A DNA stretch of 51,757 nt from Opitutales bacterium (GTDB lineage: Bacteria; Verrucomicrobiota; Verrucomicrobiia; Opitutales; Seribacteraceae): contig JAQWWZ010000043.1 of the NCBI GenBank assembly GCA_029254745.1, forward strand, positions 1-51,757, written 5' to 3'. Positions 7,462-47,584 of the stretch are shown piece by piece (the stretch's first letter is position 1; every line of letters starts with the position of its first letter). The notes beneath the pieces are model-generated. The model searched no databases, was not told the origin of the DNA, and saw only the letters and a program-made list of their open reading frames with translations. The position numbers and the translations under genes are program-made.

Positions 7462-7520
7462 TGTAGGCCTTTCAACTCCTCTCCCTGCCAAGCATGATCA
7501 ATGCTGTTCATCATACAAAA

Positions 7521-42898: not shown

Positions 42899-45193
42899 TC
42901 ACTCTTTCTGCAAACTAAGACGAAAGCCTACCGTCCCTCCAAACTTTGCATAATGACCACGTGCAGCAGACCGAACATAAAACTTCGAACTGTTCCAGGA
43001 ACCCCCTCTTTTTTTTGAGTCGCTACACCACTCTAGTATGTTGCCATGCATATCATAAAAACCCCAATTATTTGGAGGATATAAGCCAACCACTTTAGGT
43101 CCAAAACGATGAGCCGTTCTGTAGTTAGCAAATTCTGGCTCAATCTGGTTTCCCCATTGGTAACTGGTTGCAGTGCCAGCCCTACACGCATACTCCCATT
43201 GAGTCTCACTCGGTGCACAATAAAGCCAATTCTTGGGGAGTCTTCCCTTTTTTCTTTCTGTTTCCGTTAATTTGTTACAGAAATCCAACACATTATTCCA
43301 GGTAACATTCAATGCAGGGTTTTCATCTTTTTTATAAGCACCATGTAAACTTTTACCCGTTAAATCCCGAAACTGTTTCTGAGTCACTTCATACTTACCT
43401 AAAAAGAATCCACTATGTAAAGTTATCTTTTTTTGATGTTCATCCTCTCCCCTACCTAGTTCAGTTTTCGGACTTCCCATCATGAAAGTCCCTGGGTTAC
43501 ACCAAATCATTTCCAATCCGATGCAGGGAACTATCCAAGGCTTTCCTTTGACCGGTATTTCGCCAGCTTTCGAAGGGGCTTGCTTCAGGCAAAGGCGAAA
43601 GCCTGTTTTTCCTCGGTAGGAAAGATTCTTTTTTAATCTTCGAGCAATTCTCGAATTTACATGGTTATCTACGAAAGAATTACCTCGATCGACCCTGTAT
43701 TTACTTTCCACCAATGTAATGGGATCTTTTTTCGCAATGGCTGATAATGGCTGATAATAATCGATGCAAAACTCAGCGACATTCCCCAACAGGTCATAAA
43801 ACCCCCATGGATTCGAGGGATATTGCCCTACTGGGGTTGTTTCCCCAACCCCAGCATATTGATAATTTGCATGACTTGGCCCGATGGCATTACCCCAATA
43901 AAAAGTGCTATCAGTCCCCGCTCGACAGGCATATTCCCACTGGGCTTCCGTGGGTAAGTCATAGTTCCAACCCTCGGGTAAACGGCCTGCTCTTTTCTCA
44001 GTAAGACTCAATTCCTGGCAGAACCTCTTTGCTTGGTCCCAACTTATATTCTCCACTGGTCGCTTGGGTCCAAAGTACTTACTCGGTGAGGTGCCCATAA
44101 CTGTTTTCCACTCCTCCTGGGTAACTTCAAACTTCCCCAGAAAAAAGCCCTGGGTCAAGGTGACTTCATGGCGGGTTTCATCTTGGTTTCTGCCCTTTTC
44201 CTTGTTCGAACTTCCCATAAAAAAAACACCGGGCTCACACCAGTTCATTTCCAGTCCGATCGAAGGCACCGTCCAAGGTCTACCCTCCATGATGGCAGTG
44301 GCTGTATCCCCACTTTTCCCATCTGGGACAAGAAAAGAGTATCCACCGATTAAAACGATCACAACGATGGCAAGCCCAAGCCATAGACCCAACTTGGTTT
44401 TCTTAGGCTGAACCCTTTGCCTATATGAGACTGGTGATGTGGAAACCGTATTTACTTTTTTCTTCCCTGCACCTTCACCCTTCCCCTTTGCCCCAACCGA
44501 ACCATGGGGCTCCATCTTTGCAAATATGGTGGCGGCAGCAGTGGCAGGTCTGGAGCGGATTTTTTTCTTTTTCTTACCCAGTAATTGGTCCAAAGCATCC
44601 CTTACTTTTTTCTGATACCGATCCCCCGGCAATTTATACTTTAAAATGGCCTGCAAATCTCCCATTCGTAATCGCAAACCGGGAGGTAAAGCAGATTCCT
44701 CCATATGAACAGCCAGAAAAAGTTTATCCTCATTAAGAGCCAGATTGATTTCATTTCGGCAATTAACCGAGGCGGTTGACCGGGGTGAGATAAAAACAAG
44801 AAACACCGAACATCCAATAACCGCATTGGCAATTTCCTCGGGCCATTCACTGCTGGCTTCAATACCTTCATCATACCAAACATGATAGCCTGCATCATTG
44901 AGCTGACTTATCTCCTTAAAAACCTCAGCGCTGTCCCTATGGGCGTAACTTATAAATATATAGGGCTCATCCCCGTGGTACGCCTCGAATGGGGGAACCA
45001 TGTATCGACCCACACTATGACCGACTGTGACCTCTTTGATCTTGGGGATTTCTTTCACCGTGATCCAATCCTCACACCCATCATACCAAGAAGGGTCATC
45101 CATTTTGACATAACCCGCGTTGATCCAGCCCTGTACATCCTCGATCTGGTAGGGACCGACTTGAGTCCCATTGAGCATAAGGTAGAGATCCAT
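42899..45193 (-). CDS. GYF-TIR-transmembrane-FGE-FGE multidomain protein
   Basis: A 764-residue protein. Residues 1-50 are a GYF_2 (DUF4339-like) domain (LMLNGTQVGPYQIEDVQGWI). Residues about 77-205 are a TIR domain: YIFISYAHRD, HVWYDEGIEASSEW, CSVFLVFISPRSTASVNCRNEI, where Glu148 aligns with the NADase glutamate of catalytic TIRs. A basic linker and one membrane segment (about 268-289) follow. Two formylglycine-generating-enzyme-like domains cover about 308-536 and 552-763, with LPTEAQWEYACRAGT and its twin, WGFYDLLGNVAEFC, and RGGSW intact only in the second (RGNSF in the first). The FGE domains may be binding modules rather than enzymes. The gene stands alone. Confidence 0.92.
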   Translation of the reverse strand: MDLYLMLNGTQVGPYQIEDVQGWINAGYVKMDDPSWYDGCEDWITVKEIPKIKEVTVGHSVGRYMVPPFEAYHGDEPYIFISYAHRDSAEVFKEISQLNDAGYHVWYDEGIEASSEWPEEIANAVIGCSVFLVFISPRSTASVNCRNEINLALNEDKLFLAVHMEESALPPGLRLRMGDLQAILKYKLPGDRYQKKVRDALDQLLGKKKKKIRSRPATAAATIFAKMEPHGSVGAKGKGEGAGKKKVNTVSTSPVSYRQRVQPKKTKLGLWLGLAIVVIVLIGGYSFLVPDGKSGDTATAIMEGRPWTVPSIGLEMNWCEPGVFFMGSSNKEKGRNQDETRHEVTLTQGFFLGKFEVTQEEWKTVMGTSPSKYFGPKRPVENISWDQAKRFCQELSLTEKRAGRLPEGWNYDLPTEAQWEYACRAGTDSTFYWGNAIGPSHANYQYAGVGETTPVGQYPSNPWGFYDLLGNVAEFCIDYYQPLSAIAKKDPITLVESKYRVDRGNSFVDNHVNSRIARRLKKNLSYRGKTGFRLCLKQAPSKAGEIPVKGKPWIVPCIGLEMIWCNPGTFMMGSPKTELGRGEDEHQKKITLHSGFFLGKYEVTQKQFRDLTGKSLHGAYKKDENPALNVTWNNVLDFCNKLTETERKKGRLPKNWLYCAPSETQWEYACRAGTATSYQWGNQIEPEFANYRTAHRFGPKVVGLYPPNNWGFYDMHGNILEWCSDSKKRGGSWNSSKFYVRSAARGHYAKFGGTVGFRLSLQKE

Positions 45194-45317
45194 TAATACT
45201 AATTGAAGAGAATAGTTGTTCTATTGTAAAGCATGAGTTGTAAGTCACATTCGGCCAAAATACCGAAAAGATAGCCTAAAAAAAAGGACAGGGCTCATAT
45301 GATTATCAATTTATTTC

Positions 45318-45945
45318 TCAATTCGTACCAAAAATGCGGTCACCGGTGTCGCCGAAGTCTCCGGCGATGTAACCTTGCTCATCAAGTTTTTCATTAATTG
45401 AGGCGGTATAAATTGAGACATCGCGATGTCCCTTTTGGATACAGGCAACACCATCAGGAGCTGCGTCGACGGAGAGAAGGAAAATAATGGTTCGACCCTG
45501 CTTCTTTTAGCGGGGTTACAGCCGCCACCGATGAGTTTCCTATTGCCAAAACAGGATCCACGGCAGTCACTAGGCAATATTCTAATTAATCAGGAACTTT
45601 ACAGCAGTATTCAACAGGTTTGAGGGTTTTTCCATATCGGTATAACCTGACGAAGCCAACCTGGGCAGCAGGAATCAATTTAAGGATGCCGTTGCGTAAA
45701 CCGTTACCAGCTCACATGACCGAAAAAGGCTATATTTTCACCTGCTTACAAAGGGGTCGTGGTCTGACAAAACAAGGTTTCAATCGATACTTCCTGCAAA
45801 GAAAGATCACGGGGTACCTCGTAGGTTATAAGCAACGAGATTTCTCTGAGTAACTGACGAAAGGATGAAATCGGAGTTTGCCTACGCGTCACAGGAGTTA
45901 ACCGGTGTTGCACGTGCGGAAGGTCGGTGGATATAGGTTCTTCAT
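45318..45945 (-). pseudogene. upp: Uracil phosphoribosyltransferase pseudogene
   Basis: The minus strand from just after deoA encodes recognisable UPRT pieces in several frames: HVQHRL and FRQLLREISLLITYEV, then RDLSLQEVSIET; after a stop (TAA, 45746-45748) AGENIAFFGHV; after a frameshift near 45710-45715 [20 protein letters not shown] and [13 protein letters not shown]; a second stop (TAA, 45586-45588); then AVDPVLAIGNSSVAAV, the PRPP-loop region; a frameshift near 45477-45490; then VDAAPDGVACIQKGHRDVSIYTASI and GYIAGDFGDTGDRIFGTN, the family's C-terminus, ending TGA at 45318-45320. An early frameshift is also possible. At least two stops and two frameshifts make it a clear pseudogene, lying 2 bp after the deoA stop. 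Confidence 0.93.
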
Positions 45946-45947
45946 TT

Positions 45948-47255
45948 CTAAACAATGGTTTCTACAATAAGATCATGTAACTTCACCGGATCTGGTGAAA
46001 ATTCAAAAGCCTGTGAAAGTAAGGTTTTAGCCCGGTCTATGCCTTGCCTGGATGAGGCATGGATTCTCAGTAAAAGATCTCCTTTCCCCACTTTTTGCCC
46101 GATTCCTGCAAATTGATCGAGCCCCACCGAAAAATTAAGGACTTCCCCAGCTTTCTTTCGACCTCCACCCAGTTCAATAATCGTTTGCCCAAGAATTCGC
46201 CCATCCACTTTTGACACATAGCCCGCAATCGGGGCCAGAAAATCAGCCACTTCACCTGCCTCCCCTAGATAGTGAGGGGCCCGGTCAATAAAGTCATGGG
46301 GGCCACCCTGGGCATGGATCATACCTGCCCAGACTTCGACGGCCTGCCCATTGGCTAAAGATTGCCGCAGTGCTTCCCTCCCGCTGGCAATGTCCGATGC
46401 TAACCCCGATGTCACCAATAAATTTGCCCCAAGGGAAAGAACCACGTCGAGCAGTCTGTCTTGACCTTTCTCATTCTTTAAAAGTTTGAGGGCAGACTTT
46501 ACCTCCAAAGCATTGCCAGCCGCGTCTGCCAGGGATTCATTCATATCTGTCAACAAGGCTGTGGTCTTACAACCCGCTCCATTAGCGACCGAAACCAAGG
46601 ATTGAGCAAGCTCTCTGGCCTCCGCCATACCTGTCATAAAAGAGCCACTCCCCACCTTTACATCCAGGATTAAAGAATCTAGGCCAGCTGCCAGTTTTTT
46701 AGAAAGAATGGAAGAGGTAATTAGGTCTAAACTCTCGACCGTACCGGTAAGGTCCCGAATGGCATAAAGTCTCTTATCTGCCGGGGCGATCCCCTCTCCA
46801 GCTCCAACAATCGCACACCCAACCTCGGCGATAATTCTTTCAAATTCCTCACTTCCCACCTCAGTTCGGTAACCTGGTATAGATTCCAATTTATCAAGAG
46901 TTCCTCCTGTATGCCCGAGCCCTCGACCTGAAACCATGGGTACATAAGCACCACAGGCAGCAAGTAAAGGTGCCAAAACCAGAGAAACATTATCTCCGAT
47001 GCCACCCGTTGAATGCTTATCTATCACAGGACCTGCCACCTTCCACTTCTGAACATTCCCCGTATCCCTCATAGCCAAAGTGAGGAATACTCGCTCCTCT
47101 TGACTCAACCCATTCAGACAAACTGCCATGGCAAAAGCTGCGGCTTGTGCATCACTTACTAACCCACTGGCTAAGCCCGCAGAGAATTCATCTATTTCAT
47201 CTTTACTCAGGCACACTTTGTCCCGCACTTTGCTTATTATTACAGACAAACTCAT
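45948..47255 (-). CDS. deoA: Thymidine/pyrimidine-nucleoside phosphorylase
   Basis: A 435-residue protein with the family layout. The phosphate-binding KHSTGGIGD is at 80-88 and the signature SGRGLGHTGGTLDKLE at 109-124; later GSFM, TALLTDMNESLADAAGNALEV and the C-terminal beta domain with RAPHYLGEAG. It splits thymidine or uridine with phosphate to the base and (deoxy)ribose-1-phosphate. Its start overlaps the end of cdd by 4 bp (ATGA), so the two are translationally coupled. The downstream partner, upp, is dead. Members of this group can accept both thymidine and uridine; which is not decided here. Confidence 0.94.
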   Translation of the reverse strand: MSLSVIISKVRDKVCLSKDEIDEFSAGLASGLVSDAQAAAFAMAVCLNGLSQEERVFLTLAMRDTGNVQKWKVAGPVIDKHSTGGIGDNVSLVLAPLLAACGAYVPMVSGRGLGHTGGTLDKLESIPGYRTEVGSEEFERIIAEVGCAIVGAGEGIAPADKRLYAIRDLTGTVESLDLITSSILSKKLAAGLDSLILDVKVGSGSFMTGMAEARELAQSLVSVANGAGCKTTALLTDMNESLADAAGNALEVKSALKLLKNEKGQDRLLDVVLSLGANLLVTSGLASDIASGREALRQSLANGQAVEVWAGMIHAQGGPHDFIDRAPHYLGEAGEVADFLAPIAGYVSKVDGRILGQTIIELGGGRKKAGEVLNFSVGLDQFAGIGQKVGKGDLLLRIHASSRQGIDRAKTLLSQAFEFSPDPVKLHDLIVETIV

Positions 47256-47584
47256 AAGGAACCAAAATGGTCAGGGTTGAACGAATCAGAAAGTAATTCA
47301 CCTGTGGTTCGCTGCAAACTCTGTCCCGATAAGTTTACTTCGAGCACCAAGGTATCAGCGTGAGGAAATTCAGCCAACTCCTGCCGACATCCCCCACAGG
47401 AGGTGATCAACAGAGTACCGTTCGCAGCAATAGATATCTCCTTCGCTTGCCTGGCTCCTGCCTCGGTACAGAGCCCTTCCGGGCAAGCTGCATTCTCAAC
47501 AATACACCCAGCAAAGTCATGTCTAAAGACAGATCGTAGAGCCGCACCCACCTTAAAATTTGAGTAAAGTGAGTGGATATTCAT
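47252..47584 (-). CDS. cdd: Cytidine deaminase (shortened)
   Basis: A 110-residue protein with the zinc motifs of homotetrameric cytidine deaminases: YSNFKVGAAL (7-16), GCIVENAACPEGLCTEAG with Cys39 and catalytic Glu41, and the second ligand pair SCGGC (Cys63, Cys66). It is shorter than the usual 130 residues or so, because it lacks the N-terminal helix and about a dozen residues between CTEAG and SCGGC. An out-of-frame ATG upstream (MSDLTRKLQPFT, then stop) resembles a normal cdd start, so a frameshift may have clipped the N-terminus. It deaminates cytidine to uridine and feeds deoA, which it overlaps by 4 bp. Activity is uncertain. Confidence 0.82.
   Translation of the reverse strand: MNIHSLYSNFKVGAALRSVFRHDFAGCIVENAACPEGLCTEAGARQAKEISIAANGTLLITSCGGCRQELAEFPHADTLVLEVNLSGQSLQRTTGELLSDSFNPDHFGSL

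Follow-up and report, generated by a model that had tools for sequence, protein, structure and literature searches.

Can a bacterium join, within one protein, a sensor outside the cytoplasmic membrane to a TIR domain inside it? Known bacterial TIR proteins mostly sense intracellular events, and the question is raised by a gene at positions 42899-45193 of the stretch of Opitutales DNA analyzed here (51,757 nucleotides in all, hereafter the window). Our preferred reading, to which we give a probability of roughly 55%, is that this gene encodes a one-protein outside-in receptor in which a periplasmic pair of FGE-type domains would sense and the TIR domain would cleave NAD+.

Domain Architecture and Membrane Topology

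The interval 42899-45193 is filled by one 764-codon open frame on the minus strand, with its start at 45193 in the ORF scan; the plus strand over the same interval is full of stops. An earlier note on this DNA had placed a 764-residue protein here, and the frame stands with its strand corrected to minus. The product is laid out as a GYF_2 domain, a TIR domain, a linker, a transmembrane (TM) segment and two FGE-type domains, all encoded on that strand, and its Pfam matches lie far above chance, with GYF_2, TIR_2 and FGE-sulfatase each exceeding the curated cut-off. The GYF_2 domain (PF14237; residues 4-50, 45044-45184) scores 31 bits against a cut-off of 25.8. The TIR domain, with a PFxAY lead-in (residues 68-205, 44579-44992), is delimited by Pfam and an AF2 model, and TIR_2 itself matches residues 79-183 at 67.3 bits (cut-off 28). 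Behind a variable, Lys/Arg-rich linker (residues 206-268, 44390-44578) and the TM segment (residues ~271-289, 44327-44383), the FGE-sulfatase match falls into two stretches, 43592-44248 and 42959-43513, with 217 bits in total. The first is FGE-type domain 1 (FGE1; residues 316-534), of C-type-lectin fold, identified by Pfam, the structural model and C-terminal motifs; the second belongs to FGE-type domain 2 (FGE2; 42902-43513), which reaches the C-terminus and was identified by Pfam and C-terminal motifs. The combination of these four domains and one membrane segment in a single protein, as the earlier note had described it, is thus borne out by Pfam and hydrophobicity.

Residues 271-289, between the TIR domain and FGE1, are the only hydrophobic segment outside the domains (mean Kyte-Doolittle value 2.42). 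Five Lys or Arg residues and no Asp or Glu flank it on the N-terminal side, with two Lys or Arg and three Asp or Glu on the C-terminal side. A strongly positive N-terminal side is also found in most relatives of the window protein, and many members of the TIR subfamily have a TM segment after the TIR domain; in most of them it is the flank toward the TIR domain that carries more positive charge. Since the N-terminal side is the positive one, the TIR domain is predicted to lie in the cytoplasm and the FGE pair in the periplasm. The picture of a surface-sensing FGE pair with a cytoplasmic TIR domain therefore keeps its predicted sidedness, with "surface" replaced by "periplasm" in this diderm. 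An FGE domain is in itself no proof of an outside location, because a second TIR protein encoded in this genome (L064, 494 aa) combines a TIR domain of the same subfamily with an FGE domain and has neither a GYF domain nor a TM segment, which makes a cytoplasmic location probable for it. We dropped a potential disulfide pair within the FGE domains as evidence on topology, the pattern being limited to one clade.

A Conserved Front Half and Variable Outer Halves

Relatives identified by name are uncultured Opitutales and Opitutia MAGs (Verrucomicrobiota). Of 92 relatives, only members of the window's own family have the complete GYF-TIR module, and 388 genomes drawn from the phylum gave no intact full-length match besides the window's genome. 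A survey of the GYF-TIR-FGE architecture, for which the earlier note had called, shows GYF-TIR-TM to be a family-wide module rather than a one-off: within this one Opitutales family the front half is conserved and outer halves are exchanged. Following the shared GYF-TIR-TM, the window protein carries FGE-FGE, L047 FGE-LamG-FGE, L048 FGE-LamG-LamG, L050 a single FGE domain, and L051 an FGE domain followed by two Ig-like domains. At L052-L059, GYF-TIR is followed by a second GYF domain before the TM segment and by an LRR-like outer half, a reading by eye in the sister genus g2, where Pfam finds no LRR in the outer halves. The outer regions of L060 and L061 have no assigned domain. Two GYF-TIR-TM genes with different outer halves stand in tandem at L060 (4997-8520, minus strand).

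L047 shares the site of the window gene, the flanking deoA, deoC, aldehyde-dehydrogenase, 3-hydroxyisobutyrate-dehydrogenase-like, hydrolase and protease genes being 77-94% identical, which implies that a LamG cassette has entered or left the gene between FGE1 and FGE2. The TIR domain itself behaves as a cassette, since in genus g2 a gene syntenic with those for GYF-TIR-GYF-TM-LRR-like proteins encodes GYF-GYF-TM-LRR-like without a TIR domain (L063, 5773-6981, minus strand). An empty site is found in G011 (L179), which has the same neighbors and no GYF-TIR gene. Three relatives are interrupted: L047 by an in-frame TAA within LamG at about 8896, L049 by an in-frame TAG between the TIR domain and the TM segment (7475-7477), and L056 by a change of frame near a run of C at about 6970. 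Decay, assembly error and on/off switching are all candidate explanations. In the window, the stretch that separates deoA from the TIR gene (45194-45947, minus strand) holds a decayed remnant of upp (uracil phosphoribosyltransferase), broken across all three frames, upp being intact in L047 and L179, and the cdd gene (47252-47584) looks frameshifted near its start.

The window gene, TIR domain included, is under strong purifying selection, as measured by dN/dS against L047, its nearest syntenic ortholog. The TIR domain differs by one amino acid in 138 residues and has a dN/dS of 0.013, below all six neighboring genes compared (0.04 to 0.19). Values for the other parts are 0.098 for GYF, 0.134 for FGE1, 0.171 for FGE2 and 0.49 for the linker. 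The higher dS of FGE2 than of FGE1 (0.90 against 0.36) hints at a separate history.

Beyond this family, the TIR subfamily matched 418 loci in genome contigs, of which 80 were kept, with hosts in Planctomycetota, Bacillota, Chloroflexota, Gammaproteobacteria, Lokiarchaeota and other groups. Among the 75 members scanned for domains, LRR_5 was found in 15, GYF_2 in nine and FGE in eight, along with TPR and others. Single examples include TIR-TM-LRR_5 (L113, 1854-3548), TIR-TM-DUF6273 (L086, L096), TIR-TM-trypsin (L090) and TIR-Lcl_C (L084); L113, L086, L096 and L090 are clostridial and other relatives and belong to a wider set of membrane TIR proteins. In two Lokiarchaeota proteins (L136, L141), the same TIR subfamily sits at the C-terminus, at 43-44% identity.

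Genomic Context and Possible Defense Function

TIR NADases are known from immunity, and the protein may act against phages or competitors as a death switch, in which case it would be a membrane-bound relative of Thoeris, SPARTA or the conflict sensors linked to DGRs. Envelope damage or a periplasmic phage or predator ligand would then activate the TIR domain, with NAD+ collapse and cell death to follow. This is one possible outcome of the receptor reading and does not exclude it; we consider it rather unlikely. In its favor, FGE/CLec domains are the parts that putatively sense antigen in VMAP, iSTAND and DGR conflict systems (PMC7159879; PMC10907252), the gene is present or absent at a fixed site within the genus, and the outer halves are exchanged. 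Against it, no defense gene adjoins at any of the nine loci examined, where the sole PADLOC matches, near relatives of the gene, were ClpB-like and endonuclease-III-like. The window gene stands among housekeeping genes, and PADLOC matched no defense family in those adjoining it, in agreement with the earlier note. Plasmids held no relative at E 1e-10, and the phage collection and IMG/VR gave one distant match each. In the sister genus g2, seven of eight genomes keep the gene; where its position was examined, it occupies a single site surrounded by housekeeping genes, unlike a defense island. We rejected a mobile defense island on the PADLOC results, its few matches being housekeeping genes, and fixed chromosomal sites of this kind lean toward a resident sensor. 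The genome, 96.5% complete, also has no match to the reverse transcriptase model RVT_1, which does match in three control genomes; nothing therefore points to DGR diversification of the FGE domains, and we rejected it.

No downstream reader is encoded adjoining the window gene. A Thoeris-type partner was sought across the genome by profile search: SIR2_2 had no match, and STALD had none either, a weak result given that no control genome matched. The gene for the soluble TIR-FGE protein is near-universal in the family. Immediately upstream of it lies a gene for a 652-residue TPR-S and guanylate-cyclase protein, and this gene pair (L064, 5708-9157) is conserved across the family. TPR-S, a sensor domain by its Pfam description, is matched in 38 of 42 family genomes, most with a TIR-FGE match within ~2 kb on the same contig. 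The pair is possibly a TIR-to-cyclase signaling unit, and one may speculate that TPR-S reads a TIR product and could thus also serve the window receptor.

The TIR Domain and Its Active Site

Residues 1-212 were modeled with AF2 from a 71-row alignment (mean pLDDT 85), and by structure comparison the TIR domain matches those of SARM1, SPARTA and AbTir at Z 14-17, which answers a check proposed in the earlier note, the comparison of this domain with catalytic TIRs. A profile alignment equates E148 with AbTir E208, D108 with D167 and S82 with S140; in AbTir numbering, chain position 78 plus 130 gives E208, and the same offset fits the letters at S140, D167 and R151. All three AbTir residues are needed for NADase activity (PMC11374754). 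Glu148 (44750-44752), the putative catalytic residue, thus occupies the position claimed for it. It is invariant in all 71 sequences, from many phyla, as are D108, E109, W106 and W117, and S82 is kept in 67. Of the outcomes that the earlier note had named as fatal to its reading, a TIR domain lacking the NAD pocket and FGE domains predicted to be cytoplasmic, neither was seen. Judged from these residues, NAD cleavage by the window TIR domain is likely.

One point relevant to the product escaped the earlier note. Where the WxxxE motif has its Trp (AbTir W204), the window protein has Asn144 (44762-44764), and Asn stands at this position in 65 of the 71 subfamily sequences. In AbTir, W204 is required for production of 2'cADPR and W204A weakens activity, whereas TcpC does not need the corresponding residue, W240, for NADase activity (PMC11374754; PMC10937652). 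Because a residue needed for 2'cADPR in AbTir is replaced, the product may differ from that of AbTir, and 2'cADPR is the less likely prediction.

The same data can be read without any NAD chemistry, with a TIR domain that only self-associates, as in MyD88 and TLRs, and passes its signal to partners, for example through GYF. The fold resembles the TIRs of receptors and adaptors (Hydra TRR-2 at Z 17.1, IL-1RAcP and MyD88) as closely as it does NADases, the WxxxE Trp is gone, and the GYF domain suggests a protein partner. A scaffold would have no need of E148, D108 and, almost always, S82, which are conserved across phyla, and we regard this reading as quite unlikely.

The FGE-Type Domains

Both FGE-type domains lack the Cys pair of FGE: at its site, after the RGGS motif, RGNSFVDNHVNSRIARR and RGGSWNSSKFYVRSAAR contain no Cys. 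The tandem model has a pLDDT of 77.5, good in FGE1 and poor in the C-terminal third of FGE2. The best match of the FGE1 model is TvpA (2y3c), a DGR variable protein (Z 31.4 over 226 residues), followed by PvdO at Z 29.6 and FGEs at Z 25-26. Because the catalytic pair is missing and TvpA is the best fold match, both domains most likely serve as binding domains, in line with the ligand-binding role that the earlier note had given to FGE-like folds.

Such binders might sense nutrients or the cell envelope, for example sulfated polysaccharides, with periplasmic FGE, LamG and Ig domains binding glycans and a TIR product tuning metabolism or the sulfatase arsenal. The outer domains are of glycan-binding type, the genomes hold 36-110 sulfatases each, and four of six loci in the window's genus (L048, L049, L051, L056) have sulfatase genes next to a GYF-TIR gene or no more than ~3 kb away. 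With sulfatases so common, this proximity is weak evidence, a lead noticed after the fact (p roughly 0.02, for a test picked once the data were known), and no sulfatase adjoins the window's own gene; we think this role improbable. That the domains are enzymes, for sulfatase maturation or EgtB-like, with the TIR domain incidental, is extremely improbable: the Pfam family name and the sulfatase-rich genomes would fit, but the absent Cys pair argues against sulfatase maturation, a binding protein outranks FGE as the fold match, and TIR-TM would be superfluous for an enzyme.

Proposed Mechanism and Comparison with Known Systems

In the outside-in receptor that we favor, the two catalytically dead FGE/C-type-lectin-fold domains would bind a ligand, glycan or protein, in the periplasm, and the protein would then cluster through its single membrane helix. 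Clustering would bring cytoplasmic TIR domains together to form a composite active site, in which Glu148 and Asp108 would cleave NAD+, giving an ADP-ribose product, local NAD loss or both. The N-terminal GYF domain may recruit a proline-containing partner or help to position the TIR domain. The output may be either cell death against an attacker or ordinary signaling.

The window protein shares with the TIR NADases AbTir, SARM1 and SPARTA TIR a predicted fold, the catalytic Glu, Asp108 and Ser82, and differs from them in its NxxxE motif and putative membrane receptor architecture. Thoeris ThsB offers a weaker likeness, ThsB_TIR matching at 20.6 bits, just below the cut-off of 21.2, and the window gene differs in having no adjacent ThsA. 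The likeness to the FGE/CLec sensors of VMAP, iSTAND and DGR systems (Thiohalocapsa DGR targets, TvpA) lies in the ligand-binding domain. The window protein differs as a membrane-spanning single protein, with no reverse transcriptase in its genome and no vWA, MoxR, STAND or NACHT partner seen adjoining. Such binders are sometimes combined with TIR in conflict systems (PMC10907252; PMC7159879), so the combination is already known; in the literature searched, we found no paper joining "TIR domain" and "FGE-sulfatase", which does not prove novelty. What stands out is the single-span receptor with exchanged outer halves, together with the NxxxE motif.

A broader proposal, which we hold tentatively, is that these proteins form a family of bacterial single-span receptors in which exchangeable ectodomains (FGE/CLec, LamG, Ig, LRR) drive, from outside, a near-invariant NADase consisting of GYF-TIR or TIR. 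They would be a prokaryotic counterpart of TLRs, signaling through NAD chemistry, and for want of the cyclization Trp their product would be something other than 2'cADPR. If true, bacteria would have an outside-in TIR receptor in the form of membrane TIRs whose periplasmic sensors (lectin-like, Ig or LRR) can be changed, a TIR subfamily across many phyla would carry an altered active-site motif, and the origin of the Toll-like layout would become open to test. There is no evidence for common descent of the architecture. The window protein runs in reverse order, with the TIR domain N-terminal and the sensor C-terminal, has FGE (in relatives LamG or Ig) instead of LRR, keeps the catalytic Glu and adds GYF. 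As in animal Toll and Toll-like receptors, however, one membrane span would join an extracytoplasmic recognition module to a cytoplasmic TIR domain, and in the subfamily relative L113 the module behind the TM segment consists of LRR_5 repeats.
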